Virus record (IMG/VR): IMGVR_UViG_3300024999_000091
Coordinates: 1-64,000 of that record
Origin: a virus
Reading direction: 5' to 3' (one strand)
Length of the DNA stretch: 64,000 nucleotides
The notes beneath the pieces are model-generated. The model worked only from the letters and a program-made list of their open reading frames with translations, did not search any database and was not told where the DNA came from. Positions within the stretch are counted from its first letter, which is position 1, and every line of letters starts with the position of its first letter. Both the position numbers and the translations under genes were made by a program. This document shows positions 4,727 through 50,255 of the stretch, in pieces.

Positions 4727-4733
4727 GGTTAAC

Positions 4734-4958: not shown

Positions 4959-4995
4959 GAAAAGATTGGTTATAACTGAATATTTGCCAAAACCC

Positions 4996-5694: not shown

Positions 5695-5721
5695 TAATTT
5701 GTACTAAGTTGTTCAAAAAGT

Positions 5722-5749: not shown

Positions 5750-5755
5750 TACGCC

Positions 5756-5930
5756 ATCGCTTAGCGGATGGCACCCGCGCAGTAAGGGCGATAAACCAGA
5801 ATTACAGGTGACATGTTGAATAATCGAAACTTTTTTAAAATGGCAAGCAGCTGGACGTGCCAAACTATTCCACCTTGGGTACCTGTGCCCTTGGAAGGTG
5901 GAATAGGTCCAGCTGCTTGCCATTTTTTTT
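5756..5930 (+). ncRNA. Structured leader or small RNA before the replication operon
   Basis: From the predicted start near 5756, about 80 bases contain a small hairpin (GCCATCGC 5753-5760 with GCGGATGGC 5764-5772) and then a long terminator hairpin. No open frame with a ribosome site fits. The unit could be a free small RNA or an attenuator controlling the primosome genes. No known riboswitch class was recognised. Confidence 0.45.
5837..5930 (+). terminator. Long two-part hairpin with T8 tail
   Basis: Outer arms 5837-5856 and 5907-5926 are perfect 20-base complements. Inner arms CTATTCCACCTT (5865-5876) and AAGGTGGAATAG (5895-5906) are perfect 12-base complements. An 8-base bulge (5857-5864) separates them on the left side. 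Eight T residues end at 5930, so this is a strong intrinsic terminator on the plus strand. Genes downstream either need read-through or a later start. Confidence 0.8.
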
Positions 5931-5940
5931 GGTGAAACCT

Positions 5941-6090
5941 ATGCGAGAAAAAGATGACATAGATGATGATTTTGAAGATTGGATAGAAAGATTGCGCGAG
6001 TACTCCAAGGAGAAACGAGAAATTTTTGAATCTGGAATGCCTTTCTCGCAGGATGTTCACGAAGAACTGATTGATAATCATAGGGTGTGA
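5941..6090 (+). CDS. Small acidic protein before the replication initiator
   Basis: 49 residues (MREKDDIDDDFEDWIERLRE start), acidic and helical. A longer frame beginning at 5857 would be translated through the terminator hairpin and is rejected. The stop overlaps the GTG start of the next gene by 4 bases, suggesting translational coupling. No family recognised. Confidence 0.55.
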   Translation: MREKDDIDDDFEDWIERLREYSKEKREIFESGMPFSQDVHEELIDNHRV

Positions 6091-7034
6091 CTGTGGGCAC
6101 ATCATCGACAAGATACAGGACAGTGCATTGTCTGATATGGAATGATGATAAATTTCCTTATATGTCCGACTATGGAAAACTCGTTTTTCTTCACCTCCTC
6201 ACCACAACGTTTTCATCACCATTCGGTTGCTTTAAGGCGGGGAAAGCATCGCTCCTTGAAGAGTCTCGAATGAACCTCGAAGGGTTTGGCAAAGGGTTTG
6301 CCGAAGGGTTAAAAGCAGGTTTGTTTAAATATGACGAAAGGACCCTTACTATCCTTCTTCCAAACTTTCTGAAACACAATAAACCGGCAAATCCGAATGT
6401 GGTAAAAATGTGGGGAAAACTGTTTTCAGAGTTGCCTGACGGACCATTGAAAAACGAGAATTACTTATTAATAAAAGCATGTTGCGAAGGGTTAGGTAAA
6501 GGGTTTGCCGAAGGGTTTGCCGAAGGGTTTAGGGAACCATGTCGAAACCATATGCCAATACAGGAACAGGAACAGGAACAGGAACAGAATAATAACAACC
6601 TTTCCGCTTCTGACGAAGACGGTGGAGTAAAAGAGGTTGAAGAAGAGACTTTTTACCTTTCAAAGAAAAAACGAAAATTAAAAGGAAAGGTTCTTGAAAA
6701 TTTCAATCTTTTCTGGGCAGCTTTTGCTTACCCGAAAGCAAAAGCTGAGGCAGCTGACGCCTGGTTGGACGTATATTCGCAAAATCTCGTCGACGCCATT
6801 ATAAACGCCGCAAGAATCGAAGCAGCAGAGAGACCGAGAATTATCGCTCAGGGGAAAACACCAAAGTACGCCCAAGGTTGGTTGTCGGGGAGAAGGTGGG
6901 AGGATTCACTCGGGGAAGATGGTAGCAATAAATTATTCGACTGCGAGCGATGCAATTACAAACTCAACCACCAAACCACATGCTGGAAAGAGGGCCGTAA
7001 AACATGCTCATCATACCAGAAGGTTGAGTTATGA
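6087..7034 (+). CDS. Lambda-O-like replication initiator
   Basis: 315 residues starting GTG, coupled to the gene before it and overlapping dnaB by 4 bases. The N-terminus (IWNDDKFPYMSDYGKLVFLHLLTT) is the winged-helix type of phage replication initiators. The middle has GKGFAEGF repeats and an EQEQEQEQ tract encoded by DNA repeats. The C-terminal half has a DnaD-like helical block and a short Cys-containing tail (CERCNY). Its place directly before dnaB and the internal iterons support origin binding and helicase loading. Confidence 0.75.
   Translation: MTVGTSSTRYRTVHCLIWNDDKFPYMSDYGKLVFLHLLTTTFSSPFGCFKAGKASLLEESRMNLEGFGKGFAEGLKAGLFKYDERTLTILLPNFLKHNKPANPNVVKMWGKLFSELPDGPLKNENYLLIKACCEGLGKGFAEGFAEGFREPCRNHMPIQEQEQEQEQNNNNLSASDEDGGVKEVEEETFYLSKKKRKLKGKVLENFNLFWAAFAYPKAKAEAADAWLDVYSQNLVDAIINAARIEAAERPRIIAQGKTPKYAQGWLSGRRWEDSLGEDGSNKLFDCERCNYKLNHQTTCWKEGRKTCSSYQKVEL
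6279..6533 (+). repeat. 12-bp iterons inside the initiator gene, candidate replication origin
   Basis: Two tandem arrays of a 12-bp unit like GAAGGGTTTGCC: three units at 6279-6314 and four at 6486-6533. A hexamer tract (CAGGAA)4 begins at 6561 and is followed by an A-rich stretch. Lambdoid phages carry their origin iterons inside the O gene, so this arrangement is a reasonable origin candidate. Confidence 0.5.
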
Positions 7035-8368
7035 ACGCGCCGCACAGTCTTCAATCAACAAGAGTCCCGCCGCAGAATATAGAGGCCGAGATGTCTATCA
7101 TCGGCACATGCATGCTTTACCCAGACGCTGTGACAACCGTAGTCGCAGAGCTTGCCCCGCAGGATTTTTACAAGACGCATCACCGAAGTATTTTTGAGGC
7201 AATTTATTCTCTTTGGCACAAGAGGGTCAACGTCGACCTTGTAACCGTTTCGTCTTTCCTGAAGGATATTTCGAAACTTGAGGAGGTCGGAGGTTTCGCA
7301 TACCTGTCATCGCTTTGTGCTGTGGTCCCGATAAGGTCAAGAATAAAAGATTTTTGCCAGATCGTGAAAGAGAAGGCGAAAGCACGGCAGTTGATCAAGG
7401 TCGCCGAAGAAATCGCCGGATCATGCTATGACGGTGCCCCGGTAAATGATCTGGTGAATGAGTTTGGCCAGGAGATCGTTAATCTGTCCACCGATGACAC
7501 CGAATATACCAGGGATATCTCCGTCATCACTGATTCGTTACTCAAACACATCACCGAAATCCATAATGGTGAGAAAGACACGTTTGGGCTTCCAACCGGA
7601 TTTGCTGATTTCGACAGCCTGATTGGAGGCCTACAAAAAGCAGAGGTGACTATTATTGCCGGCCGGCCAGCGATGGGGAAAACCACATTTGTCATGAATA
7701 TCGCCCATCATGTGGCTAAGGCCGGGACGGGGGTGTTGATTTTCTCAATGGAAATGGCATCTGAAAGGCTGGTACAAAAACTCATCTCGACCATCTCTGG
7801 CGTGAACACCAAAAAAATGGATCGGGGTTTAATGACGCCTGATCAATTAAAGGCTGTTCAGGAAGCGGCAATTTTTCTAAAGAAACTGCCAATCACCATT
7901 GATGAAAGCTCTGCCCTTGGTATCACCCAAATTCAAGCCAGAGCGAAAATCCAGGCCATGAGGCGATCTATTGGCCTGGTGGTTGTCGATTATATGCAAC
8001 TCGGGAAAGCCAAGGCAGTTTCCAGGGAGCAAGAGATTACCGCAATTTCTGCAGGGCTTAAGGCTTTGTCGAAAGATTTAAATGTGCCGGTCATTGCCCT
8101 ATCACAGCTTTCCCGGAAATGTGATGAGCGACCGGACAAGAAACCAATGATGTCTGATCTCCGGGAATCTGGTTCGATTGAACAAGATGCAGGGGTTATT
8201 GCCTTCATCTATCGGGATGAGGTGTATAACACGTCAGAAGACAATCCGTTACGAGGATTGGCTGAAATAATCGTGAGGAAAAACAGATACGGCGATCCTG
8301 GAACTGTGAAAATGTTCTTTGATGGGGGCCGGTGTAGGTTCGGCGATATGGTTCAGGAAATAAACTAG
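7031..8368 (+). CDS. dnaB: Replicative DNA helicase, DnaB family
   Basis: 445 residues, normal length for DnaB. The N-terminal domain starts with QNIEAEMSIIGTCMLYP. The C-terminal RecA-like domain has Walker A GRPAMGKTTF near residue 213, Walker B VVVDYMQL near 318, and SQLSRKCDERPDKKP plus DLRESGSIEQDAG. It unwinds DNA at the phage fork, probably loaded by the overlapping upstream gene. No intein. It is the last gene of segment A: 31 bases after its stop the sequence reaches the inversion junction. An exact copy is at 59888-61225. Confidence 0.95.
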   Translation: MNAPHSLQSTRVPPQNIEAEMSIIGTCMLYPDAVTTVVAELAPQDFYKTHHRSIFEAIYSLWHKRVNVDLVTVSSFLKDISKLEEVGGFAYLSSLCAVVPIRSRIKDFCQIVKEKAKARQLIKVAEEIAGSCYDGAPVNDLVNEFGQEIVNLSTDDTEYTRDISVITDSLLKHITEIHNGEKDTFGLPTGFADFDSLIGGLQKAEVTIIAGRPAMGKTTFVMNIAHHVAKAGTGVLIFSMEMASERLVQKLISTISGVNTKKMDRGLMTPDQLKAVQEAAIFLKKLPITIDESSALGITQIQARAKIQAMRRSIGLVVVDYMQLGKAKAVSREQEITAISAGLKALSKDLNVPVIALSQLSRKCDERPDKKPMMSDLRESGSIEQDAGVIAFIYRDEVYNTSEDNPLRGLAEIIVRKNRYGDPGTVKMFFDGGRCRFGDMVQEIN

Positions 8369-8392
8369 GTGGCGGCCGGTTGTGACCACTAA

Positions 8393-8405
8393 GAAAGTAT
8401 AATCA
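8393..8405. other. Inversion junction site, right (GAAAGTATAATCA)
   Basis: Reverse complement of 115-127 and, with one mismatch, of 59851-59863. Bases 8393-8399 are common to all three joints seen. It also holds TATAAT (8398-8403), a perfect -10 box without an obvious -35, and forms the 5' end of leader repeat copy 2. Confidence 0.6.
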
Positions 8406-19307: not shown

Positions 19308-22300
19308 CTATTTGTTCTCACCTACGACATATTTTGAATATCCGATTGACCGGCGAATGGGGTATTCGGTCTGCCCGGTGGCCGCGTCATAAACACCTTC
19401 GAATGTCCGCTGTATTGGTTTTGTTGGGATTCCGGCGAAATAGCCGAAGGTATGAACCATTCCGAGAAGCGACTGCTCAAGATATTCATCAGGGGAAATT
19501 CGCTCCGTGCCGCCCTGCAGAAATTTAAAGAAATCGCTCACGGTTTCCTTGCTGGTGCTGAACGCCTCTGACACTGGCGTGAACTCGTCTCCGAAATATC
19601 CTTGCCCGGTGATCGCCTGAGAATACCCCTCCATGATGGTTCGGATGATTGGCAGTCCCTGGAAAGGACCGAGAGCGATACCTTTCGCCTGGTTCTTCAG
19701 GAAGCGCTCCTCGTCCTCATCGTCGCCGTCGATAATCATCAAGGCGTCGGCAATGGCCTGGAAAATAACGGGCAGAAGGACGCCGAAGACAAAAAGCCGT
19801 TTGGCCGAATCCTTCGGGTCTGCCCTCATGTTTCTCACAGCCATGAATATCTGCCGGCTGTAACTGGCCGGCGCCGTCATGAACATGGTGAAGAGTTTCA
19901 TGATCGGGGTGCCCTGCTGGAACCAACCAAGATCCTTGGCCGCTCCAGACTGTTGGGACCGCTCGGTTGCCTTCTCGAACTCATCGAGGGCCTGCTGGTC
20001 AGCTTCCCGGTGAGACATGCCGCCCGCCTTGAGTTTGTCCAGGTGGTATTTATAGACGGCGTACCCACCAGTGAGAACGGAAAACTTGTCACCCAGCTGC
20101 ACCATCACCATAACGGCATCTCTCCCCCGGCGATGCTGGGCAATTATGTTGTCGCCGCCCATCTTCATGGCGGCGGCCACGTCCCGCTCGAAGCCCTGCT
20201 TATATCTGGACTTCATCATGGTCGACCGGCCGAGAATCCTGGCAACCGTGATCGGGTGAGCCATGGCATAACCAGTGTGCTTAAACCAATCGGCAACAGG
20301 AACGTCAGCCATGTATGCCGGAATGGCGGTCATTTGCTTGAGGAAAACGACGGGGTTCAGGCCTACCATGGCCCGGGTCACGTTGCCGCGTACTCGGTCC
20401 AGAAAGTGCAGATCATCGACAATCTCCCGGTCGCTCTTCACAAATCGATCCTGGAAGAACCGGATGGTCCGCATGGTCGACCGGCCGTAATGCTGCCGGA
20501 TGAACTTCTGCACTGTAGGGCTGTTGAAGGTGCCGTTGATCTCCCGGGTGGGAATCGCCCACGCCTTGAAGTGGTTCATGTCGGCAATGTGATTAACCAG
20601 GATGTCGTTGACGTTCTGCATCTTGAACGGTTTGGTATTTCGCACCCGGGACCGCAAGGATCCCTTCTTGATGCTGCCGGTCTCTATGCCGGATAGCATG
20701 CCCTCCTTCTCCTTGTCTGCCGCCTTGCCGGTCACCTCCCGGCGCCATGGCACATAGTTGGCCGTCTTATCCAGATCGATACCGTAAACCTGCCGATACA
20801 CCTTGTTCGTGTCGTCGTGGAAGTCCTGATAGAAATCGGCAACGAGATAGTCTGCCCACGCTTTCAGTTTTGGGCCAATCAGCTTTTCAATCTCATCGAT
20901 GGTCTTGCCGTCGATACCCATGCCCTCGAAGGTCTCGGCCACTACCGGGTTTTCCATGTCCCGGCTGATCTGATACCAGTAAGCGGCCTGCAGGGGAGAG
21001 ATGGTCACGGCCCGCCGTTCCCCCTTGTCGCCGAAAGCGATGTGTACCTTGCCTTCTACCTGCTGGCCGAGTTTCGCGAAGGTCTTGGCGAGAGCCACGT
21101 TGTCTTTGACGCCAAATATCTCCACGGCCTTGTCCATGACCCTCTCATGCGTCTCCATCTGCATGCGCTCGTAATCCCTGGTGGCCTTGTGAGCGATGCT
21201 GCCGAAGTGCTTCACCATCCATGACTGCAGGGTCTTGCCACCTGACTTACGGCTGATCTTGTCGAGCATCAACTCCCAACTTTGGATGGAGTTTGCCGTA
21301 GCCGAAAGGGCTTCTTTCACCTTGCCGGTGGCGCTCTGTTCCCGGGCAACTCGCTGGCTCTTCTCAGCGATGGTCTCCGGAACCGGTTCATCTTCGCCGG
21401 TAATTTCCTTAATGGCCTTTTCCCGGTTCGCCTTATTGCGCTCCTTCCAGGTTTCAAATTGTTCCCGCCACGGCGCCCGGCCTTCCTCAAGGACATCGGA
21501 CATCGACCGGTAAGCTCTCACCACCTCGTCAAAGGTTTGGGCCTCGATACCGCCGAAGATGGCGAGCAGGTTGCCGAAGGATTCCATATCGGCTATCTGC
21601 TCCTCGACCCGCTCCTGCTCCTGGGGAGTTTTGGCCTGCTGTAGCTGATCTTGGAGAATGAGGTGTTGCTGGTGCAGGCGGTCCTGCTCGAGTTGCAACT
21701 CCACCCGGGAGTCCGCCGTCTTGCCGATCTTGAAAGCGATGCCACGGAGATATTTCAGGTCGCGCTCGAAGGCCGCCCCCCGGCCGCGCCGCACCCTGTC
21801 TTTCTTCATCCGCAAAGGGGCAACGGCCTTTTCCAAGCGCTCAATGATCTCGTCTTTGAGGTATCCGGCCAGGGCCTTATTGCCGTGGATAAGGAAGTTC
21901 CGCAGGCGCTTCTGCTGTATCGCCTGATCCTTCACCCGGCTGATCTGCGACAGTTTGTTGAGCAGTTCCGCCCGGGGTTCCGCCGGAAACTTGTTGACGA
22001 AGTTCGCCGCGAACTGCTGTTTGGCCGCCGCCGACTTCAGCGGATCTTTGATTGCGGCCCGGGCGGCCCGGAATGCCTCGAGTGCTTCGTCAACCTTTTT
22101 GGCACCAAACCGATTCTTGGCCACGGCCGGCGATGACACGGCAGCCAGTTTTCGCATGATCTCGGCAACCAGTTTCTCTCCGTGGGTCAGGCTTGCGTCG
22201 GAAACCACGCCGTCTACCGTGGCGTTCAGGATTGTGGTGTTGCGGGCTTCCTGGTAACTGTCGGCGGTAAGGTCTGGACTGCTCTTGCTTTTCAAGAGGA

Positions 22301-25300
22301 CATCGCGCACGTCCTGCCCTTCTTTCAAAAGCCCTTCGGTTTTCAGCATCTTTTCCATACTGAGCCACGGCGGCCGCACTTTTCGCGCTGCCGGTGGCAA
22401 GTTCAGGCGATACTGAACAAGCCTTGCTTCAACCTCTCCGACTCGTCGGTAATATGATTCCGGCTCGGAAGCGTCATATCTTGTTCCAGTTGCAAAACCT
22501 TCGTGATGCTGAATGATGTGCTGAGTCTCGTGCTGAATAACGCTGCGCTGCACGGCATGGCTCATCCTTGAGTTCACGAATATCGTCTTCGTGGCCTGAT
22601 CCAACAACCCTCTTCTGTTCGGACCCAAAGCCCTGAAACTGATTTCGTAATCATTGAGGAACGGGTAGTTGGCGAACAGTTGACGATGCTTCAAGGCATC
22701 GCTGAGTTTTCCCTCCTTCGGTTCTATCGAGGAAAGGCTGTCGTCAATCTCGAAGCTCCATTGCCCCGGGACGATTTCCCACCATCCGGTTTCCGCCCAT
22801 ATCTCTTCTCTCGGCTGGCCGTCGGCCTTCATCTCTTTGGCCGTGGCCAGTTTGCCGCGGTCGGCGGCGGTCGCTTTCTCGCCTGCGAAGGAGAAGGAAA
22901 CACCTTCGCTTTTCCCTGCCGGCGATGAAGTAGCGCGAACTGCTTTTGCGGCCATGGCCTTAAAGTCATCGACAGATAGGAAATTGACAAACCGCTTCCC
23001 GAACACCCGCAGCATGATCTTCTTGATTGCCGCCATAACCCGGCGAACCGGCCCGGCTGCCGGAGCGTCCTCGACCATGTAGGCAAGAACCTCGCTCCAG
23101 TAGTTCTCCGGTTTCGTGTCGGCTGGCACCCTGGCCATTGCCGCTCTGATTGCCCGGCCGGTCCTGCCGGTTTCCTTCTGGCGCTTCTCGAGCGAGCCTT
23201 CTACCAGTTGATACTCACGATCGGCGAGCAGGAGCTTCCGGAGATGGACGCCTACCTCGTGGTTTAGGACATCGGCGTCCCGGCCCGGCTGGATGCCGTC
23301 GGCCACCAGCCATACTTTTTCACCGTTGGTAAAGCCCTGGATGGTCTTGCCGTCGGCTGAATATAGGACTTCGACTATCGAGACGTCTGCGTCATTGAAG
23401 ATGACGTAGTTGTGGACGGGTCCGCGCGGAACCAGGTCACCCCGTTCCAAGGCATCAGCTGCCACGTCTTTCCCTTTTTCCCTTAGATGAGTAACGGCTT
23501 TAGGGATATCCTCGACCATCATCAGCATGGCAGATTCGGCATCATTTTTTACATCGTTACTGCCATCCTTACCGTTGGCCCATTCGAGTTGAAAGTTAAC
23601 ACCACGACTGCTGGCGTCGAGGTATTTGATGCCGCGGATACCGAGGGAGTGGAGGTATTTGGAGGCGGCTTGGTCGTTCCTGCGATCCCCTTTATCTTTC
23701 ACATCTCCAAGAGATGACGATATTCGTTCGTATATGCCGCTTCCGGAAAAATCAAGACCAGTATCTAGTAGTTTCCCTATGATGGCATTATTGTCCCATG
23801 CACCGGCATCAAGCGCCGTCCTAACCTTCTTCGACTGTTCCGATAGTGGCTTATCCCACAGCAGATATTCGTCTTCGGTTGGGGCGAGATCAACCTTGTA
23901 TAGGTTTCCTGCCGGTTTTCCCCACGCCTTATCAGTCGCATCCCAAAGTTTTTCTTTATTCTCCTCAATAAAGCCTCTTGCATCGGCGACAGCATAACCT
24001 GCTTTTCTTACCGCTACTGCCGAGCGCATACCGGCGGGAGATTCATTTTTAAATTTAAATATCTCAACAACCAGATTGTGTGGCGCTTCCGGAATCAGGC
24101 GCTTGAACTCGTTTATAAAGGCCCCGATCTTTGGTGACAGTGTGGTTCGGTAAAAATCTGCCACCTCCTTGTTCCCGGCAAAATAAAGCCCATACCCGTA
24201 AGATTGGTTACCTTCACCGCTCCCGATCTTCGATGAAGAAAACTTGTCAACGGTGTGCGGGGTGCCATGCCATGCGGCAGAATACTTCTTCTCCCCGCGC
24301 AGGCCAGCGATAATCTTCCGCGCCTCCTCCTGGTTGCCGACGATAGCCATGGTGCCCTGCAGGGATTCAAAGACATCGGCACCGAGTTTTGCGCGGAGCT
24401 CCTCCTCTACCTGGGCGACTGTGCGGCCGGAAGATTCCCCAGATTTCGAGTATTGCGTATTATCGTCGGACTGCGCCTGATTGCCCCCGGCAGGCCTTCC
24501 GCCGGTCACGGTCAGGATCTTGTGGTTCTTTAATATCCGCTCGAGAACCGCATTGCCATCGGTACCGGTCGGTATGAAGTTCCTAGTGATGTAGTTGATT
24601 CTCTCGGTGAATGCGCCATAGTTCGACAGGATATTGTAATCGCCGTAGCCGGTACCTTCTACCTCCATGCGGTTCTCGCCGGCCACGCGCCTCCTGATGA
24701 TCTTCCACTTGTTGTCGAGGTTGAGTGTCTGCCCGTTCTGCAGGATGGTATCTTGCGCCTGCTTCGGCGTCATCTCCACGGCCTTTCCTTCGACATCCAG
24801 GAGGGCCATAACCTCAGAGATGTGTTCCCCGGCAATCATCCGGCCAAGCATCGTTTCGGTGCCGGTCTGCACCCGGATAATCTTCGGGTGCCCGACAAGC
24901 TTATCCCAGATAGGCAGAAGTGCCCCGGTGATAAGGTGTTCTCTTTGGGTGACGATATCAGGAATCGCCTTCAGCGCTTCGTTCCATCTTTCGAGCGCTT
25001 CAGCCTTGTCGGTGATAGAGGTGAATTTCTCTTCAAAGCCTTCTTTCTCGACCTTCCGTATCGCATTCCTGCCGTTTCTGAGAGTGATATGGTCAACGAT
25101 ATTTCCAGCCTCGTTGGTAGAACTGCTTTGACTAACGATCTGCCACGGCATACCGCTGTGATTGTTCACCACCATTCTTCGTTTTGAATCGAACGGCACC
25201 TTCTCAACGCGGTGGTCGACATCCAGTTGCACGTATTCGGTAACGGCGCCTGATCGCTGCTCGGTATAGACGGTCTGCTTATCAACAACCCTGATGGCTT

Positions 25301-28300
25301 TAGCCTTCAAGGTTTCAAGTCCGACATCCAGCGTCCCGTTTTCCTCTGCCCGGGTGACATTGGCATCGAGATAGGTTGAGAATAGATCGAAGACCTTGTT
25401 CTGCATATCGATCTTCATACTGAGAATCCGGTTAAGGAATCTCGGCACGGTCGGAATCTGTGTGCTGTTCAGCCCGCCATGCTCGTCAACGAGGTTCGGC
25501 AAGCCGAGCTCACGGACCAACATCGACATGTCGATACCATTGACGTTGCCGCGGTAGACATTGGTGATGAGCTGTTGAACTGCATCAACGGCGTACTCGC
25601 TCTCGAGGTTGTCGCGCTCTGAGAAAAGCCCCTGAGAGGATGCCGTGCGCTGTCCTTCGGTGAGCGCCCCCAACTGTGACAGTTTCCTGGCGATGGAAGA
25701 AATAAATCTCTTATGTCCCTTGAGGTCTGTGGTGACTAGGACATACTCAGGGGCAACTGCCTGGTTCGATCGATGTGACCGGCCAAGGCCCTGCACCGCG
25801 CTATCTGCCCGCCATCCTGCCTGCAAGATGTAATGGCTGCGCTGCCGCTTGTTGACGGCCGAGTTGTCGGCGTGATAGCTGGCCCCGGTGCCGCCCGCTT
25901 CGGAGAAGATGAGAATCTGCTTCTTGTCGGCCATGAACTGCGCGGCATCGGCAACACCCTTGGTCTTGCTCCATCCCTGCCGTATTTTCCTGGGGCCTGA
26001 GCCATCATCAACGGTGACGATCCGCTTCGACCTGCCGGTGACCTCTGCCACCTTGTCGACACCGAAGACATTGAGGATCTGGTCGAGCGGCGCGTCCGGC
26101 ACTTTGATGCTGCCGAGTTTATCCAGCAATTCTTCCCGCATGGCAACGGCCTCACGGTTCACCACCGGATTTCCATCGGAATCGACGACCGGCCGCGTCC
26201 GCTTGTTGCCGTCCTCATCCTCGTATTCCTCGTATTGCTGGATCGGGAAGGAATTCTCGATCATCTGCATGAGTTGGTCGCGCGGGGTGATATCGACATC
26301 CTCAAGCGACTCGGCATTGGCCAGTGCCCGGTTGGTGCTGGCCTCGTTGGTGTTGGTGATCTGCAGGACAACGGCCTTGCCGTCCTTGATATCCTGCTTG
26401 ATTGAGGTGATGACCGACGGCATCTGCATGGCCGTCAGCACCTGGTTGAAGAATCTTTGATGAGATCCCCAGAATGCCGACAAGGCATGGCTCTTGCCGT
26501 TGGAATCGGCCTCGGTGATCTGCAGGGCTTCGTCGATGTTTTTCAGGACAAGTTGCCAGGCCCCGGCGAGCTCATCATAGATTTCGCGCTGCTGGCCGGA
26601 TAGTTCATGCTCAAGGCGACGATACTTCACCTGATACGCCTTATTCTTGCCGTTGTAGGCGAGCTTCCTGGCCAGGTAGCTGCCCATGGCCTTCATATCC
26701 CGGGCGACGACCTCCATGGCCGCGATGCCGCCCTGCGATATCTTGCCGATGAAAGCCGTCGCGTTGGCGAATGGCGTACCTTCCCCCCATAAACCGAGAC
26801 GCTCGGCATAGGCGAGGTTGCTTACTTCGGTGGCTCCGGTTGCCGAGACATAGACAATCTTCGCCTTCGGCAATGCCCGCTGCAGATCGAGAGCGGAGAG
26901 AGCCATCTGGGAGGGCTTCTTGGTGAACCGGCCTTCCTTAATGGATATGGCATTCCCCATCTTGTGGGATTCGTCGAAGGCGACAACCCCGTCGAAATCA
27001 GGACCGGCCCAATCGATAATTGCCTGGAGGCGGGAAAGCTGCCCTTCTTTTGCTGCGGAAGAAACGGTTGAGTAGGCGGTGTAAAGCACACCGTCTCTGT
27101 TTGGGATGGCCTGGCCGGCCTTCACCGCGCCCTGCTCGATGATCAAATCACCGGACCAGCCGATACCATCCATATCACGATTGGCATCCTTGGCAAGGGT
27201 CCGATCCTTGCTGATCCATATAGACTTCTTGCGGCCCTGGTTCCAGTTGTCGAAGAGAATGCCGGCAATCTCCCGGCCCTTGCCGACACCGGTACCGTCG
27301 CCGATAAAGAAGCCCCTGGTTTCCCCGTTCGGTAGGGTGTCCTGGTGCGCTTGGCCGGCGGCGGTAATCGCCTCGAGTTGAACTTCACTCAGTTTGCCGG
27401 AGGTGACTGTCTCTTTCGGAATGCTTGGCTGGTATGTGATGTTGGGAAGATTGACGGCGGCCATGGCCGCGCTTTCAACGAGGTCGGCGGGGTGAGGCTT
27501 CGCCCCCTTGATAACTACGGTTGGTTGGTAGCCTTCAAAGACGGAATCAGCTGACTGCTGCTGCTTTTCCTGGCGGGTGGTCTCTAAAGTGTCTGTTCTC
27601 GGTACAGGCTCTCCATTCTGTCGAGTATTTTCCAGGCCAACTCCTTGGGCGTTGTTTTGCTGTCCGCCGTCGACACCGGAATCCCCTCGTCCTGGTTCAG
27701 GTCGGTTACCTCCTGCATCCATTCCGCCGGCTTCCACTGCAGCATTTGGCCTATCCTGTCTTCTACTTCCTGGCTTGTTTGCATCTCCCCGCTGGCCAGT
27801 GCCCATGTCAGCAGTTGTTGGAGATACAGCCTGCTGCTGTTTGGCTCCAGTTTCAGTTGCAGGAGTTTCTTCTTGGCCAGTTGGTTGATTGGTTTCTCGT
27901 TGAGCGGTAGCGGTTCTGTCATCTCTCACCCCCTGGAGTAGAGAAATCAGGTCGGCGTAGTTGTCCACCTTCCCGGTTATTACAGCATTTGTCGTCGGAC
28001 TCGTTTTGTCAATGACGAGAAGTTGATTATCGAACGTGGTGCCATACTTCCGGTATCCCTCGCCATTCATCCCGACATTGGCGCGGACATTATACTTTGC
28101 GCTGATAACCTTCCACCATTGCCGGAACATAGGCTTGTCGCTGCCCATTCCCTCGCCGACGATGGCCACGAGCCGCCCGCCAGGCTCCAATCTTTTCAGC
28201 GCCTGCTCGATATGCGCGGCACCAAACTTGGTTTTGTTTTTACTGAGTCTGCCGCCGGTTGCCGAGAAAGGAGGATTCATGACGATGACGGTCGGCTTCA

Positions 28301-31300
28301 CTGCGGCCGGCAGGATATTGTCGAGCTGCTCGGCATTCTCGCTGTAGACCGACGTGAACCCCATTTCTTTTAGCACATCCCGGCGCCGGTCGCTCAATTC
28401 GTTCACGGCGATATCTCCGACACCGGCAATCTTGCCGAACACGGCCAAGCCGCCGATACCCGCCGACGGCTCAAGATATGAGTCGGTGCGCTTCAGGTTC
28501 ACAACCCAATTGGCGACATAGGCCAATGGAGGAGGAGTCGAGTACTGCTGGAACTTGTCCTGCTCTTCTGTTCGCTTGGTCTGCGTCGGGACCAAGGAGA
28601 GGATTTGCTCAAGTTCCTTGATTTGCTGAACAGGCTCATTGCTCTTGAATTTGAAATTGTCGGCGAGGTATTGGTTGATGCCAAGCTCAAGGGCGTCGTA
28701 GGCGTCCTTTGGGGTATATTTCCCCTCGCTTTGTTTTCCGCTGTAGGCTTCATTGGCCCACTTAAAAAGGTTGTCGGTTCTTATCTTTTTCCCCGACGAC
28801 AGCCATTCTTTCACGTTGCGGGCAATCTTGGCTGAAGGTGTCCTTGGAGTAGCAGATTTGTCACTCGAAACTTCAGCAAGGTGAGCGTCTACTTCCGCCG
28901 CGCTACTCATCCCGTCCTTGTCGATCCCCGGCCAGTGCCGAAGGTTCTCATAGGTGCCGCGAAGAAACGGGCGGAACTCGGTGCCGATGTCGGCGAGAAC
29001 GGTTTTCGACCAGTCGGCAAACTTGCGGATTCCGGATTCGAAGTAGGCCCCACCGAGAACAAGAAGGTCCTGCATCAGCTCGGGGTCAAAGCCGGCTGAC
29101 AAGGTGCCGCGTTTCGCTTTCAGCCTTTCCCGGGCGGCGGCCACGGCGTCGGCGGTGAAGACTTTGTTGTTGGAAAAAGGATCTGCAGTTGCCCCGGGTG
29201 TCGCTTTGGGCGTGAGGTCTTTCAGGATTGATGGAACCACTTTCGGCTGCTCTTCACCGAACAGGTACATATGGGCTGAATCAGTATCTGCCTGGTAGAA
29301 TTTGTCGGCCTTCATGGCCTTCGACAAGGTGACGTTGTAATCGTCGCCCCGCGCTTCCGCCTCTGCCCGGTAGTTGTCGATGAGCCATTGATTCGACTTC
29401 GCCGTATCCCGTTTGGTGGTTCGCTTGGTACTGTACTTCGGGTACGGAGTAGTCTGCCGGCCGGTGGCCGTGGTGAAGACGTCGCCGGGCATGATCGTCT
29501 TGCCGTCTTTCCGGCGGCCGTCTTCGGTGAGAGTGGGCGCTACTCCTCCCGGAACTCGTGGCTCTTCGGATACCGGTGCGTTTCCGGCGGCTCCCATTCC
29601 AGAAACGGGTCCGGTGCGATCTTCATTTCCTCTTCCTGGACTTCCATTTTCACCGGCTCCTGTTGTTCCGCCGTCATTGGTCTGCTCCTTGGGTAAATGT
29701 TCCTCGCGAATGAACCACCCGTCATCCTTCTTGAAGGTGAATGGGTCGATGGCCTTGGCCTCTTTCCACTTGAGGTCGGTCTGGACTATGCCGCGGATGG
29801 TCTTGCCTTTTTTGGTGGTGTACTCAATGATCTCGGGCGAACTTCCTACGCTGTATGTATTAGATATGTTGCCATTAGATGAATTGCCTGGTATGGTAGG
29901 TGTATCATCAATTTTACTTAGAGGTTTATTATGGGTATCGGAAGACCGAGTTCCGGAGGGCACATCAGAAGGTTCCCTCGTCACAACACCAGCTATAGGC
30001 TTATCAGTGTTGCTGTCGATGGCATCAGAAGGCAAAGGTTTGAGCACAGGCTCGTTATGGAGCAGTTCCTTGGCAGAAGGCTTAGGAGGGGTGAGATCGT
30101 CCACCATCTTGACGGGGATGGGCTCAACAACTCCATCGATAATCTTTCCCTTATCACCCAAGCCGAGCATGTCGACATTCACAGACTCGGGCTTTTGTCC
30201 TGGTCTTTGGATGCTGCCGTTTGTCTTCGCGGAGAGGGGTGCTCTTTCGCTGAGATCGGCTCTATCGTTGGAGTTTGCGCCGCCTCCATCCAAGCCGCTT
30301 TTAAGAGAAGGGGTATTGACACCGGGGGGAGGCCCATCATTTACACTTGGGATTTCAACTTGGCCGTTCAGCTTTTCCGCGATGGCGTTTCCATTAGAGA
30401 CATCGCCAAGACTGTTGGCACCGGTTCCAGCACCATAAAGCGTAGTTTCCGCAGGAGAGGAATTGCTTCGTGATTTCGGGATAGCAACGAATCCATCACG
30501 GAACTTCTCGATATCGTAATCTTCAGGGCTATTCCCTTGAGCGGTAATCGCCTTCTTTATGGAATACCTGTTTTTATATGGCGAACCGTCTTCTTTCTTG
30601 ACGATGCTTTGCGCGTTTCCGCCGCCCATCAATTCAAATCCTTGGCCAGGGGGAAGGAGGGGCGTCTCGCCCGCCGACTGCCGGCGCTTCATCTCCTCAT
30701 CAGCCTGCAGCCTGGCAAAGCCCTTACGCCGCACCTTGACATCCGCCTGGTCCTGCTCATCCTGCGCCTGGTCGGCGAAGTCGTACATCATGTCGTTGAC
30801 TTCGCCTGGGTCCACGCCCTGCAGATCCTTCTCCTCGTCGTACTGCGCCTGAATGCCATGGGGAAGCTCGGGGGAATACGGCTGTTCGCCGCGGGCCTTC
30901 GCCTGATTGTATTCGGCGGCTGCTGCCTTCTGCTGCTCCCATTCGTCTTGCATCGGGCCGGAAGCGTCCACGCCCTGGCCCGGCACCGGAATACCGAGAA
31001 ACCGGAAAACCCCATCGCTGACCAATCGGTCCTTGGCGTCCTGGGGAACATCCGGGTCGTTGAAAAACTGCAGGGCGGCGTTCACCCGTTGCCCGCGGTC
31101 TTCATCGGTTTCGATGGTGGTGCCGGTGAGGACTCCTGAAAGATCGGCTGCCGCCATGATATCTGGTGATTCTGCCGGAACCGCTGGTTGATCGGTCAAA
31201 CTTTCGGTAAGTATTTTTTCCACCTCACCGCCGAGCGGGTCGGTTTCGAGATCCTTACCGCTGTCCATGAAACTGGTGGTAACGTGGAATCCGCCGCCGC

Positions 31301-32405
31301 CAAGGCCCATGGCCGCGCCGATCAGCCCGCCCTCGGCTGATGCTTCAGGCACTCCTTGATTCCATGGCTTGCCGGTGGCGAGGTTCATCCACACGGTTTC
31401 CTGTGCGCTCTGCGGCATCTCCTCAAGCATTCCCTCGGTGAGTCCGCTGCCAACCAGGGCTTTGCTGATAGCGCCGACGGTCATCTTCTCGCCGGGTTTT
31501 CTCGAGACGCCGGCCAGGAGGGAATCCACATCGGGCAATCCAAGCCTGTTGGCGATCTTGCCGCCGAGCAGGGTAAGGAGTCCGGTGCCGGCACCGGCCG
31601 CAAGGGACATGCCTGTTTGTGCCAACGTCCTGTCGCCGGTTTCTTGCTGGATACCTTCGGCTGTCGCGCCTGCGGTGAGCGCACCTTCGCCGACAGCTGA
31701 TGCGGCAATCCTGCCGGCCGTGGTTGCGCCGATAACCTTAGGGGCAATGGAAGCCAGGCCCCGGGCAATGCCGCCGGCACCGACGAGTTGGGGTAATGCC
31801 CGGGACACGCCGTGGACGATGGAAGACGGATTTTCCACCATCGCCTCAAGTTTGCCAGTGAAGCCCTTGGCCTGCGCTACTTTCTCGTTTGCCGCCTGCT
31901 GGGCCGGGGAATACAGATCGTCAATGACATCGTGCGTCGTCTTCGCGTCGTAGCCGACATAATCGAGTGCCTTGTCGGTGAGCCCGCCGGTTGCGATACC
32001 AGCCAAGCCTTTCACCGCCTCACCGGTATCCACCACGCCGTGGGCGAGGGAAACCCCGACATCTCCCAAGGTGCCGAGCACGGTTCTTTTCGGTGCTTGC
32101 GGAGTTTCGACAGCCGGTTGCGGCTTCCGCTGCTTCAACTCATCGAATATATTTCCACGCCTGACTGGCTCCTGTTCATTTAAAGCATATGTGGTGGTGC
32201 TGCCGCCATCGTCGTTTTCTGTTTTGGTTACGGCGATAGGCGGTCGCGTATCTACCTGGCCGAGTGACGATACCTGCGGCGCCAGTTGATCTTGACGGGT
32301 AACTGGCGATGGAACAGGCGATACCGATAATGGTTGCTCTGTGGCTTCAGGAGCGGCGCTGCTCAGTGCTGGTTTATTTTTCAACTCGTCGAAGATAGTT
32401 GCCAT
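19308..32405 (-). CDS. Giant polyvalent protein with methylase, Sno helicase and ART domains
   Basis: 4365 residues, about 22% of the unit genome. In order: a Gly/Ala-rich, membrane-active-looking N-terminus (80-380); disordered linker (about 600-950); an adenine methylase-like domain with EPSAGIGG and NPPF (about 1280-1480); a strawberry-notch-type helicase with GDGTGVGKGRE near 1703, DESH near 1814 and a C-terminal helicase half to about 2250; an ADP-ribosyltransferase-like ART-PolyVal region (WHGTPHTVDKF...GYGLYFA, about 2710-2750); HEVGVH near 3052 and HETQH near 3293, peptidase-like motifs; then helical domains ending in an LPD38-like region with one hydrophobic segment near 4210. The set matches phage polyvalent and DarB-like antirestriction proteins that enter the host with the DNA. 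AGGAAG precedes the ATG. A plus-strand HNH gene overlaps residues 645-825. Confidence 0.85.
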   Translation of the reverse strand: MATIFDELKNKPALSSAAPEATEQPLSVSPVPSPVTRQDQLAPQVSSLGQVDTRPPIAVTKTENDDGGSTTTYALNEQEPVRRGNIFDELKQRKPQPAVETPQAPKRTVLGTLGDVGVSLAHGVVDTGEAVKGLAGIATGGLTDKALDYVGYDAKTTHDVIDDLYSPAQQAANEKVAQAKGFTGKLEAMVENPSSIVHGVSRALPQLVGAGGIARGLASIAPKVIGATTAGRIAASAVGEGALTAGATAEGIQQETGDRTLAQTGMSLAAGAGTGLLTLLGGKIANRLGLPDVDSLLAGVSRKPGEKMTVGAISKALVGSGLTEGMLEEMPQSAQETVWMNLATGKPWNQGVPEASAEGGLIGAAMGLGGGGFHVTTSFMDSGKDLETDPLGGEVEKILTESLTDQPAVPAESPDIMAAADLSGVLTGTTIETDEDRGQRVNAALQFFNDPDVPQDAKDRLVSDGVFRFLGIPVPGQGVDASGPMQDEWEQQKAAAAEYNQAKARGEQPYSPELPHGIQAQYDEEKDLQGVDPGEVNDMMYDFADQAQDEQDQADVKVRRKGFARLQADEEMKRRQSAGETPLLPPGQGFELMGGGNAQSIVKKEDGSPYKNRYSIKKAITAQGNSPEDYDIEKFRDGFVAIPKSRSNSSPAETTLYGAGTGANSLGDVSNGNAIAEKLNGQVEIPSVNDGPPPGVNTPSLKSGLDGGGANSNDRADLSERAPLSAKTNGSIQRPGQKPESVNVDMLGLGDKGKIIDGVVEPIPVKMVDDLTPPKPSAKELLHNEPVLKPLPSDAIDSNTDKPIAGVVTREPSDVPSGTRSSDTHNKPLSKIDDTPTIPGNSSNGNISNTYSVGSSPEIIEYTTKKGKTIRGIVQTDLKWKEAKAIDPFTFKKDDGWFIREEHLPKEQTNDGGTTGAGENGSPGRGNEDRTGPVSGMGAAGNAPVSEEPRVPGGVAPTLTEDGRRKDGKTIMPGDVFTTATGRQTTPYPKYSTKRTTKRDTAKSNQWLIDNYRAEAEARGDDYNVTLSKAMKADKFYQADTDSAHMYLFGEEQPKVVPSILKDLTPKATPGATADPFSNNKVFTADAVAAARERLKAKRGTLSAGFDPELMQDLLVLGGAYFESGIRKFADWSKTVLADIGTEFRPFLRGTYENLRHWPGIDKDGMSSAAEVDAHLAEVSSDKSATPRTPSAKIARNVKEWLSSGKKIRTDNLFKWANEAYSGKQSEGKYTPKDAYDALELGINQYLADNFKFKSNEPVQQIKELEQILSLVPTQTKRTEEQDKFQQYSTPPPLAYVANWVVNLKRTDSYLEPSAGIGGLAVFGKIAGVGDIAVNELSDRRRDVLKEMGFTSVYSENAEQLDNILPAAVKPTVIVMNPPFSATGGRLSKNKTKFGAAHIEQALKRLEPGGRLVAIVGEGMGSDKPMFRQWWKVISAKYNVRANVGMNGEGYRKYGTTFDNQLLVIDKTSPTTNAVITGKVDNYADLISLLQGVRDDRTATAQRETNQPTGQEETPATETGAKQQQAVSPTTADMGTGQRGDANKPGSRRQDRPNAAVEAGGMDAGGNRPEPGRGDSGVDGGQQNNAQGVGLENTRQNGEPVPRTDTLETTRQEKQQQSADSVFEGYQPTVVIKGAKPHPADLVESAAMAAVNLPNITYQPSIPKETVTSGKLSEVQLEAITAAGQAHQDTLPNGETRGFFIGDGTGVGKGREIAGILFDNWNQGRKKSIWISKDRTLAKDANRDMDGIGWSGDLIIEQGAVKAGQAIPNRDGVLYTAYSTVSSAAKEGQLSRLQAIIDWAGPDFDGVVAFDESHKMGNAISIKEGRFTKKPSQMALSALDLQRALPKAKIVYVSATGATEVSNLAYAERLGLWGEGTPFANATAFIGKISQGGIAAMEVVARDMKAMGSYLARKLAYNGKNKAYQVKYRRLEHELSGQQREIYDELAGAWQLVLKNIDEALQITEADSNGKSHALSAFWGSHQRFFNQVLTAMQMPSVITSIKQDIKDGKAVVLQITNTNEASTNRALANAESLEDVDITPRDQLMQMIENSFPIQQYEEYEDEDGNKRTRPVVDSDGNPVVNREAVAMREELLDKLGSIKVPDAPLDQILNVFGVDKVAEVTGRSKRIVTVDDGSGPRKIRQGWSKTKGVADAAQFMADKKQILIFSEAGGTGASYHADNSAVNKRQRSHYILQAGWRADSAVQGLGRSHRSNQAVAPEYVLVTTDLKGHKRFISSIARKLSQLGALTEGQRTASSQGLFSERDNLESEYAVDAVQQLITNVYRGNVNGIDMSMLVRELGLPNLVDEHGGLNSTQIPTVPRFLNRILSMKIDMQNKVFDLFSTYLDANVTRAEENGTLDVGLETLKAKAIRVVDKQTVYTEQRSGAVTEYVQLDVDHRVEKVPFDSKRRMVVNNHSGMPWQIVSQSSSTNEAGNIVDHITLRNGRNAIRKVEKEGFEEKFTSITDKAEALERWNEALKAIPDIVTQREHLITGALLPIWDKLVGHPKIIRVQTGTETMLGRMIAGEHISEVMALLDVEGKAVEMTPKQAQDTILQNGQTLNLDNKWKIIRRRVAGENRMEVEGTGYGDYNILSNYGAFTERINYITRNFIPTGTDGNAVLERILKNHKILTVTGGRPAGGNQAQSDDNTQYSKSGESSGRTVAQVEEELRAKLGADVFESLQGTMAIVGNQEEARKIIAGLRGEKKYSAAWHGTPHTVDKFSSSKIGSGEGNQSYGYGLYFAGNKEVADFYRTTLSPKIGAFINEFKRLIPEAPHNLVVEIFKFKNESPAGMRSAVAVRKAGYAVADARGFIEENKEKLWDATDKAWGKPAGNLYKVDLAPTEDEYLLWDKPLSEQSKKVRTALDAGAWDNNAIIGKLLDTGLDFSGSGIYERISSSLGDVKDKGDRRNDQAASKYLHSLGIRGIKYLDASSRGVNFQLEWANGKDGSNDVKNDAESAMLMMVEDIPKAVTHLREKGKDVAADALERGDLVPRGPVHNYVIFNDADVSIVEVLYSADGKTIQGFTNGEKVWLVADGIQPGRDADVLNHEVGVHLRKLLLADREYQLVEGSLEKRQKETGRTGRAIRAAMARVPADTKPENYWSEVLAYMVEDAPAAGPVRRVMAAIKKIMLRVFGKRFVNFLSVDDFKAMAAKAVRATSSPAGKSEGVSFSFAGEKATAADRGKLATAKEMKADGQPREEIWAETGWWEIVPGQWSFEIDDSLSSIEPKEGKLSDALKHRQLFANYPFLNDYEISFRALGPNRRGLLDQATKTIFVNSRMSHAVQRSVIQHETQHIIQHHEGFATGTRYDASEPESYYRRVGEVEARLVQYRLNLPPAARKVRPPWLSMEKMLKTEGLLKEGQDVRDVLLKSKSSPDLTADSYQEARNTTILNATVDGVVSDASLTHGEKLVAEIMRKLAAVSSPAVAKNRFGAKKVDEALEAFRAARAAIKDPLKSAAAKQQFAANFVNKFPAEPRAELLNKLSQISRVKDQAIQQKRLRNFLIHGNKALAGYLKDEIIERLEKAVAPLRMKKDRVRRGRGAAFERDLKYLRGIAFKIGKTADSRVELQLEQDRLHQQHLILQDQLQQAKTPQEQERVEEQIADMESFGNLLAIFGGIEAQTFDEVVRAYRSMSDVLEEGRAPWREQFETWKERNKANREKAIKEITGEDEPVPETIAEKSQRVAREQSATGKVKEALSATANSIQSWELMLDKISRKSGGKTLQSWMVKHFGSIAHKATRDYERMQMETHERVMDKAVEIFGVKDNVALAKTFAKLGQQVEGKVHIAFGDKGERRAVTISPLQAAYWYQISRDMENPVVAETFEGMGIDGKTIDEIEKLIGPKLKAWADYLVADFYQDFHDDTNKVYRQVYGIDLDKTANYVPWRREVTGKAADKEKEGMLSGIETGSIKKGSLRSRVRNTKPFKMQNVNDILVNHIADMNHFKAWAIPTREINGTFNSPTVQKFIRQHYGRSTMRTIRFFQDRFVKSDREIVDDLHFLDRVRGNVTRAMVGLNPVVFLKQMTAIPAYMADVPVADWFKHTGYAMAHPITVARILGRSTMMKSRYKQGFERDVAAAMKMGGDNIIAQHRRGRDAVMVMVQLGDKFSVLTGGYAVYKYHLDKLKAGGMSHREADQQALDEFEKATERSQQSGAAKDLGWFQQGTPIMKLFTMFMTAPASYSRQIFMAVRNMRADPKDSAKRLFVFGVLLPVIFQAIADALMIIDGDDEDEERFLKNQAKGIALGPFQGLPIIRTIMEGYSQAITGQGYFGDEFTPVSEAFSTSKETVSDFFKFLQGGTERISPDEYLEQSLLGMVHTFGYFAGIPTKPIQRTFEGVYDAATGQTEYPIRRSIGYSKYVVGENK
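29931..30473 (+). CDS. HNH homing endonuclease, antisense inside the giant gene
   Basis: 180 residues. EHRLVMEQFLGRRLRRGEIVHH followed by LDGDGLNNSIDNLSLITQAEH is a full HNH_3-type motif. The C-terminal half has two helix-turn-helix units (SFAEIGSIVGVCAASIQ and SIRDIAKTVGTGSSTIK), each ending FKRRG or FRRRG. AGAGG lies about 8 bases before the ATG. This is the make-up of a free-standing homing endonuclease. It runs opposite to the giant gene with codons in exact register, over its disordered linker. A domain this complete is very unlikely by chance. Confidence 0.8.
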   Translation: MGIGRPSSGGHIRRFPRHNTSYRLISVAVDGIRRQRFEHRLVMEQFLGRRLRRGEIVHHLDGDGLNNSIDNLSLITQAEHVDIHRLGLLSWSLDAAVCLRGEGCSFAEIGSIVGVCAASIQAAFKRRGIDTGGRPIIYTWDFNLAVQLFRDGVSIRDIAKTVGTGSSTIKRSFRRRGIAS

Positions 32406-47840: not shown

Positions 47841-50255
47841 TTAATAAGGAGTAGGCCGCCGCTCGACATACGAGTTGGTGGCCTTCTCTTCGATAAGTGC
47901 CATCAGTCCTTCACCCTCGCCCATCAGCCCGTATTCCAGAGCCTCGACAGGGTGGGACCATTCGTTTTTGTCGGGAACATCCATAAATTTCTGATCTCCG
48001 GCAACCTGTAGGCGCCGGTAACAGAACTTGCCGGACAACCCCTTGCGTATCATCTTCGCCTTCTTACAGATCAGCAGGCGGGGCCGCCCGTTCATGCCAA
48101 GTTGCGTAAGCGGTTGAGCAACCGCCGCTCGACGCTGCAATGTGTCGTTGGTATCGCACGGCATACAGGGAATGCCATGGAGGTTGAGTATCTGAATAGC
48201 TGAGCTCTCAACCTCCTGCCCTGGATGTTGGCCGGCAGGGTCACCCCAACCGATAAACGAGGCGCCCTTGTAGTTCTGGTTCAGATAGTTCAACAGGTTC
48301 GGCGCGAACTTCGAGGCAGACATGGATGTAGCGCAAAACTCATCGAGGCAGAACCATGTCCCGCCGATATCCTGGATGATTGCACATGCAGGGGTCCGGC
48401 CAAAATCGAAGGAGAGGACAATCGGTGAATCAGGCCGCCAATCGACATCATCTACGCAATGGATTGAGTCGTTGTACTCGGGATGGACTGGTTTGCCGTC
48501 CATGACGAATCCATACATGTTGGCGAGGTTTACTTTGATCCAATCGTCGCTCTTACCCTGCATGCCCCGCTCGTAATAGCGAGGCACCTGTACTTCCAGG
48601 TTCTCGCGGTTTTCATGTGCAGGATTAACCACCCACACACCATTGACCTTGTACACCCCACCGGGTTGCCGGAAAAACTTCCAATCTGGCAACTTGCCAG
48701 CCGGAGCCAATTCTTCTTGGAATCTGTAGAGCCAATGATCTTCGTCGCACTGGTTTGTGTCGCCGAACATGCCGTGCCAGCTCGGCAATACCTCTCCGAG
48801 AATCATTGATGGGTATCGGCCATGCCGAAGATCAGCCATGTCCACAATTTCCTTCGGCAATTCCTTGGCCTCGCTGAGATAAAACCACGTAGTTTGTTGT
48901 CCTCGTAGTTTCCTGATGTGATCTGGGCGATCCAAGGCAATGAATATCATCTCATGATGAACAGTAGTTGGATGCGGAACGATCTTTGTCGGAGGCACCT
49001 TGAAGCGCATGGTGAATACTGGAGGTTCCTTACTACCTTCCTTCCACACCCCAATGTCTCCGAATATGGATTTAAAATCTTTGGCTGTGGTCCCGAGTAA
49101 TTCTGCGTATGTATTCCTGATCGCAATGCATTTTGTCGGACGTATCCCGCGTCGATTAGGTGTCTGCTGCATCATGAGACGAAAGCTCTTGTAGCAGGAG
49201 GTGGTGGTTTTTGCCGAATTGCCAGTGATGAAAATGCAGTCGTTATGCCGGGCAAGGAAAAATGATGTGGGGACGGTGAAGCAATATTTTCTCCCGTTGA
49301 GCGCTGGAGCCCTCACGCATTCGGTGGTGTTCCTGATATTTGTGTCATTCTTCCTGGAATTTAATCCGTGGATATAGACACAGAAGATATCTTTCCATTC
49401 AGGTCTTTCAGGGCGAACCTTCCTGGACATTGTTGCTTTTCTACCCGTGGCATGAGAGGCATACTGGATAAAATCAGCGTCATCTTTATGGGCAGTGAAA
49501 AACCGCGTCTCTTCTGTGGTGAATAATCCATCCCAATGAGATAACTCGTCGATAATCACGGCCAGTTGATGAGATGAGCATTGCCACCATTGACCGTCGA
49601 AATGCTTGCCGTGATATGGTGAACGGAAGAAGTAATTATCCTCTGTCGGCCTACTCTCGTAGGTTTTTTTCTCGAATAAAACACCATTCGAATTAAGCAG
49701 CATTTCCAACCGTTCTTTCTTCCTGGCCTTTCTCAAACCGAAACGACAGTAGTTATCATTGCATCTCTCGGGGAAATTCCCATCAGCATGAATAGCAACG
49801 GCCAACCTGATCATATCGTCAGACATATCCACCCCCATTCGCGCGGGAGGCGAGAACAAGAATGGAATATGCCTGATCGACTTGTGCTTTTCGATATCTC
49901 CCGCGAGAGCTACCCGGAACTTGCGGTGATAATCGTAATACGGGACTCGATGCTCATCCGAAAGGTTCATCGAGAGCGAATATTCGTTACGGAAATTGAT
50001 GAGAGTTTCGCAGGGCAGATCGACGTATTGATCTGGTCGCACATGGCTGATATGTCCTGTGGATGGATCCCACTGAGCAACCGTGTCACCTTCAATGAAC
50101 TGGTCAATCCGTTTCCAGCCGGTGCCGGTGAAAAACTCGGTATCTCCCGACAGGCAACCCAGGGGGCCTGTGATGATTGAGTTGGTAGTCCTGTCGTCGT
50201 AGTAGGCTTGCAGCACTGGGCCGGGTGGAGTGAATAGATAGCGATGGGTGGTCAT
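47841..50255 (-). CDS. terL: Terminase large subunit with an intein in its Walker A motif
   Basis: 804 residues, of which residues 34-346 are an intein. The extein is 491 residues. Joined, the ATPase motif reads GPLG/SAKTTTCYKSF; later FYLSEAKELP is the Walker B region, and LSFDFGRTPACAIIQD with FIGWGDPAGQ marks the RNase H-like nuclease. It packages DNA into the prohead through the portal. The protein can bind ATP properly only after splicing. The start follows the small subunit stop directly (TAG-ATG). Confidence 0.85.
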   Translation of the reverse strand: MTTHRYLFTPPGPVLQAYYDDRTTNSIITGPLGCLSGDTEFFTGTGWKRIDQFIEGDTVAQWDPSTGHISHVRPDQYVDLPCETLINFRNEYSLSMNLSDEHRVPYYDYHRKFRVALAGDIEKHKSIRHIPFLFSPPARMGVDMSDDMIRLAVAIHADGNFPERCNDNYCRFGLRKARKKERLEMLLNSNGVLFEKKTYESRPTEDNYFFRSPYHGKHFDGQWWQCSSHQLAVIIDELSHWDGLFTTEETRFFTAHKDDADFIQYASHATGRKATMSRKVRPERPEWKDIFCVYIHGLNSRKNDTNIRNTTECVRAPALNGRKYCFTVPTSFFLARHNDCIFITGNSAKTTTSCYKSFRLMMQQTPNRRGIRPTKCIAIRNTYAELLGTTAKDFKSIFGDIGVWKEGSKEPPVFTMRFKVPPTKIVPHPTTVHHEMIFIALDRPDHIRKLRGQQTTWFYLSEAKELPKEIVDMADLRHGRYPSMILGEVLPSWHGMFGDTNQCDEDHWLYRFQEELAPAGKLPDWKFFRQPGGVYKVNGVWVVNPAHENRENLEVQVPRYYERGMQGKSDDWIKVNLANMYGFVMDGKPVHPEYNDSIHCVDDVDWRPDSPIVLSFDFGRTPACAIIQDIGGTWFCLDEFCATSMSASKFAPNLLNYLNQNYKGASFIGWGDPAGQHPGQEVESSAIQILNLHGIPCMPCDTNDTLQRRAAVAQPLTQLGMNGRPRLLICKKAKMIRKGLSGKFCYRRLQVAGDQKFMDVPDKNEWSHPVEALEYGLMGEGEGLMALIEEKATNSYVERRPTPY
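49218..50156 (-). mobile_element. Intein with LAGLIDADG endonuclease in the terminase
   Basis: 313 residues. Begins with Cys (CLSGDTEFFTGTGWKRI, block A) and ends FITGN before a Ser in the host protein. The middle has two LAGLIDADG-like motifs (IRLAVAIHADG, AVIIDELSHWDG). The Cys1, terminal Asn and Ser+1 needed for splicing are present; the usual His before the terminal Asn is replaced by Gly. The insertion lies inside the P-loop, so it interrupts the ATP site. Confidence 0.85.

Follow-up and report, generated by a model that had tools for sequence, protein, structure and literature searches.

Introduction

Homing genes are commonly held to depend on an intron, intein or intergenic gap as a way of sparing the host gene, and HNH genes are often found within group I introns. 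The nearest published case to the locus described here is the ShiLan domain, the hidden HNH of mycobacteriophage DNA methylases (Arsenault, Gosselin, Gogarten 2025, PMC11855218), which, together with the Pacc40 insert, represents HNH genes situated in alternative frames of phage methylase genes in the absence of splicing (PMC11855218). As at the present locus, the ShiLan HNH lies in a coding gene whose frame stays open with neither intron nor intein, and the insert is predicted to form a tolerated loop; unlike the present gene, it occupies another frame of the same strand, has a GTG start and lacks a ribosome site (PMC11855218). A word search of the text of that paper found no mention of the opposite strand. 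Antisense homing endonuclease genes (HEGs) are described from nuclear rDNA group I introns, for example I-DsqI (PMC9548176), and these share with the present case a homing nuclease gene opposite the host gene, but the intron that holds them is self-splicing and belongs to an rRNA gene, so that no second protein frame overlaps them. The free-standing homing endonucleases of T4 type (mob, seg) are likewise intronless mobile nuclease genes, but are intergenic or slightly overlap the end of a neighbour, rather than lying inside an intact ORF of the opposite strand (PMC2988022).

At the locus reported here, too, an HNH gene occupies an alternative frame while the host ORF stays open and splicing elements are absent. 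It is not on the host's strand, however: it runs antisense, codon on codon, within the gene of a giant polyvalent protein, and the complement is free of stops even in relatives of the gene that lie outside giant genes. We consider it probable (roughly 0.8) that a mobile gene of the HNH homing type was inserted antisense and in codon register in an inter-domain linker, without intron or intein, and that the host gene is read through it.

The HNH gene and its giant host gene

The window (the whole stretch of DNA analysed, 64,000 nucleotides) is part of a 68,255-bp IMG/VR virus record (IMGVR_UViG_3300024999_000091) and encodes a P22-type portal, a major head protein and TerL. It also contains a perfect inverted repeat, in which 4256-8399 is the reverse complement of 59857-64000 (position i is matched by 68256-i). 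Should the repeat extend to the ends of the record, the terminal repeats would be 8399 bp long; it is either an assembly fold-back or a pair of true inverted termini. The features of the insertion and of its host are the following.

19308..32405, minus strand: large polyvalent (DarB-like) protein gene, 4365 aa, host of the insertion
29931..30473, minus strand: antisense-derived Pro/Ser/Asn-rich linker, residues 645-825 of the giant protein
26643..27497, minus strand: AAA_34 (N part of the Strawberry-notch helicase), downstream of the insert in the same frame (E=1e-107)
25311..26090, minus strand: Helicase_C_4 domain of the giant protein (E=3e-85)
22728..22895, minus strand: LPD23, large polyvalent protein associated domain (E=1e-19)
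29931..30473, plus strand: HNH_3 nuclease gene of 180 aa, opposite the giant gene and aligned with its codons
30045..30173, plus strand: HNH_3 domain, residues 39-81 (Pfam HNH_3, E=7e-12)
30207..30308, plus strand: first three-helix (HTH) bundle, residues 93-126 (AF2, pLDDT 80-90)
30354..30455, plus strand: second HTH bundle (HTH_7), residues 142-175 (Pfam HTH_7, E=2e-6; AF2)
29920..29924, plus strand: Shine-Dalgarno-like AGAGG ahead of the HNH ATG
29869..29897, plus strand: promoter-like TTGCCA-17-TATGGT with TG extension, 33 nt 5' of the ATG (not above chance alone)

The HNH ORF begins with ATG, and the AGAGG ends 6 nt upstream of it, in line with the 180-residue plus-strand frame with a ribosome site that the earlier note, made from the letters of the window, had described. 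The protein scores 45.1 bits against the HNH_3 profile, for which the curated cut-off is 24.8 (Pfam), and its HTH_7 match covers residues 133-173 (E=2e-6; Pfam). In the AF2 model (mean pLDDT 83), a beta-beta-alpha HNH core is followed by two three-helix bundles, such that profiles and model agree with the HNH_3 motif and the two HTH units recognised in that note. A search of PDB folds with this model returned nothing below E=0.001, the weak matches being to resolvase HTH and I-PpoI. A promoter scan near the gene gave the single site listed above, and a search for DNA repeats around the insert gave no convincing target-site duplication.

The giant protein unites LPD23, AAA_34 and Helicase_C_4 in one chain, the combination that characterises a large polyvalent protein, and a profile search adds a metallopeptidase-like domain. 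The Strawberry-notch helicase, LPD23 and related domains are shared with other large polyvalent or DarB-like proteins, from which this host differs in that part of its linker is antisense HNH sequence. It is related to the DarB-like giants of Pseudomonas H66, Shewanella Y11 and Pseudoalteromonas Y7 (that of H66 is recorded as structural, with verification by mass spectrometry). The HNH gene lies opposite residues 645-825, as had been claimed, exactly codon on codon, and the 4365-codon ORF is intact. Pro, Ser and Thr account for 28% of the antisense stretch versus 17% of the whole giant protein, and bulky residues for 22% versus 28%; in five of six hosts (the exception being L083) Pro/Ser/Thr are more abundant in the complement than in the remainder of the giant protein, a composition that suits a linker. 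The earlier note had proposed a Pro/Ser/Asn-rich, disordered linker at this place.

Group I or group II introns gave no Rfam match at the gathering threshold, and intein splicing blocks A, B, F and G are absent from all six giant or polyvalent hosts of this HNH family and present in the TerL relatives described below. These results accord with the invasion without intron or intein that had been suggested. They also bear on the possibility that the HNH gene resides in a cryptic group I/II intron or a degenerate intein, to be excised from mRNA or protein, a situation that would resemble the antisense HEGs known in introns (PMC9548176) and the related HNH genes that lie antisense inside TerL inteins. 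We regard this as very improbable, since the linker is devoid of the intein blocks that surround the TerL cases, the insert is little larger than the HNH ORF, and within an intron the open frame would not need keeping.

Relatives of the HNH gene and their settings

Relatives were gathered by HNH protein similarity alone, and not by nesting or by an open antisense frame. Seven further close relatives were obtained, four in viral contigs (L003, L004, L083 and L200, with 67%, 59%, 52% and 52% identity to the window gene, respectively) and three in bacterial assemblies (L110, L111 and L112). The HNH gene is nested antisense in giant ORFs of 3210 (L003), 2799 (L004), 2398 (L111) and 2373 codons (L200), as well as in an ORF of 604 codons that contains an InPase-like domain (L083), and every one of these nested genes is in codon register. 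The insert follows the InPase domain in L003, L004, L083 and L200, and other domains in the window and L111. No clear ribosome site is seen ahead of the L003 gene. The L110 and L112 genes are located outside long ORFs, beside InPase-like genes, and their antisense complements are still open (GC 0.39 and 0.32, respectively). Past the insert all six polyvalent-type host genes continue in frame, with the downstream MTase/helicase regions of the window, L003 and L004 remaining open.

The arrangement, which the earlier note had described from a single phage, is therefore real but not unique: a single HNH family shows it in six polyvalent-type genes that are giant or long, and there is one further case with a different HNH. 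The latter (L179, ~3434-3763) has a zinc-finger-like N-terminus; it too is antisense to a giant polyvalent ORF, codon on codon, and is located upstream of the InPase domain of that ORF. At L110 (1167-1853), the HNH complement is fused in frame to an InPase-like N-terminus and a second InPase start is found downstream, possibly as the result of a gene-end duplication at insertion. L082 was considered as a nested case and rejected, as the HNH covers only the extended start of its 709-codon antisense ORF. A plasmid search yielded a single weak match only.

The open antisense frame

In codon register, only the codons TTA, CTA and TCA of the HNH gene would place stops in the giant frame, and a codon count of the 29931-30473 plus-strand frame finds none of them, as the earlier note had stated. 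Given the protein and the codon usage of the phage, the chance of such an open frame is 0.01-0.02 for the window member, so that the single case is only modest evidence. The explanation that had been offered for the open giant frame, namely the lack of these three codons in the endonuclease gene, extends to all eight members (163 Leu and Ser codons in seven members and 27 in L200). The per-member chances are 0.008, 0.58, 0.23, 0.11, 0.0014 (L110), 0.44, 2.5e-5 (L112) and 0.10 (L200), with a product of ~2e-13 that ignores the relatedness of the members and hence overstates their independence. In L112, at a GC content of 0.32, TTA or CTA is used for none of 13 Leu and TCA for none of 9 Ser (P=2.5e-5).

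The codon-register antisense frame is open in 8/8 family members compared with 6/65 other HNH genes (Fisher P=2e-7). Among the six open controls L179 is itself nested in a giant gene; L039, L066 and L087, whose antisense frames are open in part or throughout but which are not nested, were also retained as controls. With about 9% of other HNH genes open in this register, an open antisense frame alone is weak evidence. That frequency, and chances that reach 58% for some members, are what might be said for luck, according to which a real HNH gene happens to have an open complement and the giant gene is broken or split, its downstream part restarted or dead. Such a coincidence is highly unlikely in view of the openness of all eight members, including AT-rich ones in which it is least expected, and of the in-frame continuation of the six host genes past the insert.

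Conservation of the two frames

Across seven members, the HNH frame retains 51-67% amino acid identity and the giant frame 20-43%, and the differences at HNH codon positions 1, 2 and 3 are 0.38, 0.28 and 0.62, respectively. Of 118 core columns, 41 are invariant when read as HNH and 4 when read as giant protein, all 4 of which are invariant in the HNH as well. The higher HNH identity and the excess of changes at position 3 indicate that the nuclease is kept as a protein and that the giant side is only kept open; at the level of these sequence comparisons, they show purifying selection on the HNH frame only. The earlier note had called for a codon-position analysis of both strands, which singles out the HNH frame as the conserved one, and had named decay of the HNH frame in relatives as contrary evidence; the frame is intact in 8/8 members.

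Intron HNH nucleases exclude competitors, and the gene might correspondingly have been domesticated, for example for excluding rival phages or for regulating the giant gene through antisense transcription. The purifying selection on the HNH frame and the steady link to polyvalent and InPase genes would be in keeping with such a role. We nonetheless think it unlikely, because the gene is rare (present in 1 of the 250 genomes searched from the family of G001) and occupies varying places in the giant gene, features that a mobile element fits better.

Empty sites and probable mobility

In L170, relative to L200, the flanks of the insert are joined by a short linker without an HNH gene, with 55% identity across the junction, and the same is seen in L156, L148 and L174 relative to L004 (43-44% identity). 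The giant protein of the window and that of H66 share the N-terminal region and the domain past the insert, with no HNH between them in H66; the DarB-like giants of the three isolates H66, Y11 and Y7 all lack an HNH at the corresponding place. Thus, the comparison of homologous giants that had been proposed as a check finds the flanks joined without the antisense-coded linker, and tblastn with the linker peptide gives no match in 50,697 phage records, indicating that it is not an independently conserved domain. The gene accordingly displays the patchy presence, at sites empty in relatives, by which homing endonucleases are recognised. The search gave no two closely related phages with the insert as their sole difference, the empty-site relatives being just 43-55% identical across the junction. 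The varied insert sites and the contrast between the HNH proteins of the window and L003 (67% identical) and the corresponding helicases (23% identical) fit a mobile gene, one that would tolerate several linkers of a single class of proteins.

TerL inteins with antisense HNH genes

In the same HNH search, at least 20 distinct TerL genes of phages were recovered, 700-1060 codons long, that have an intein at Walker A with an HNH gene antisense to it (loci L006, L009, L011, L013, L017, L029, L035, L056, L065, L068, L072, L113, L115 and others). The intein starts C..GDT and ends HHN ahead of SGK, and the sense protein matches Pfam Intein_splicing and Terminase_6N as well as NCBIfam intein_Nterm. 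Unlike in the giant-gene family, the register is always phase 2. The HNH gene lies between splicing blocks B and F, the position usual for the nuclease in inteins with nested homing endonuclease domains; in contrast with such inteins it is antisense and a separate gene, and the giant gene of the window has no intein at all. As the TerL group is defined by its open phase-2 frame, the figure of 21/21 is descriptive, the informative one being that the phase-2 complement is open in 0/65 control HNH genes. Conservation again favours the HNH frame (mean identity 60% versus 37%).

In AF2 models of 11 of these inteins, residues 1-95 and 300-339 fold (pLDDT about 90) and match the splicing domain of the Mtu RecA intein (E=6e-7), and the antisense middle is predicted to be disordered (pLDDT 30-40). 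Protein splicing would remove the antisense-coded stretch, and the frame, which in its different register has more potential stops, would be held open by the need for TerL. Isolates with such an intein are Pectobacterium phage Ymer, in which the HNH is unannotated and TerL is labelled hypothetical, and Pseudoalteromonas phage PHS3.

The TerL gene of the window (47841-50255, minus strand) has a canonical intein (49218-50156, minus strand) at Walker A (CLSGDT ... FITGN/SAKT) with a LAGLIDADG-like motif in sense (LAVAIHADG), at the same site as the antisense-HNH inteins elsewhere. In L042, the TerL ORF (3434-6586, minus strand) seems to contain a pair of inteins, one with an antisense HNH gene and, after it, another near the C-terminus (CFVAGTLIETQEG ... 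YYANSILVSN/C).

Discussion

The proposal of a homing gene in a tolerant linker, with its antisense strand turned into protein sequence, is supported by the present analysis; homing itself and the translation of both frames we infer. The HNH protein would be expressed separately from the opposite strand by means of its own ribosome site, and would cut a giant or InPase-type gene that lacks the insert, whereupon repair would copy the insert into it. Only copies that leave the recipient readable would survive, and for an antisense insert in codon register readability amounts to the absence of TTA, CTA and TCA, which the lineage would have fixed; selection would favour this avoidance of stops, as any insertion that disrupts the giant gene is presumably lost. 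The HNH complement would then supply ~180 stop-free codons that become a disordered spacer in the giant protein, and both proteins, giant and nuclease, would be made.

Our literature search, whose scope did not extend to the preprint 10.1101/2025.01.02.630785 on non-canonical actinophage inteins, found no paper describing an HNH gene on the strand opposite an intein or a protein gene that is read through. With the same-strand, out-of-frame ShiLan HNH as the nearest published case, we regard the antisense, recurrent arrangement as a new form of such hidden insertions. On balance, we favour the wider view that adaptation to the strand opposite an intact protein gene has occurred repeatedly among HNH nucleases, in one lineage through a stop-free complement as a standing adaptation that permits splice-free insertion in protein linkers, and in another through inteins whose nuclease is an antisense gene.

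If this is true, selfish spread and host-gene function would reside on the two strands of the same DNA. The means of sparing the host gene would be double-stranded reading, in which the complement of the nuclease gene is harmless protein, and the locus would allow selection on the two strands of a single sequence to be put to the test. It would, moreover, explain some of the odd linkers in giant phage proteins, and it points to TerL inteins, such as that of Ymer, in which the nuclease gene has been missed by annotation.
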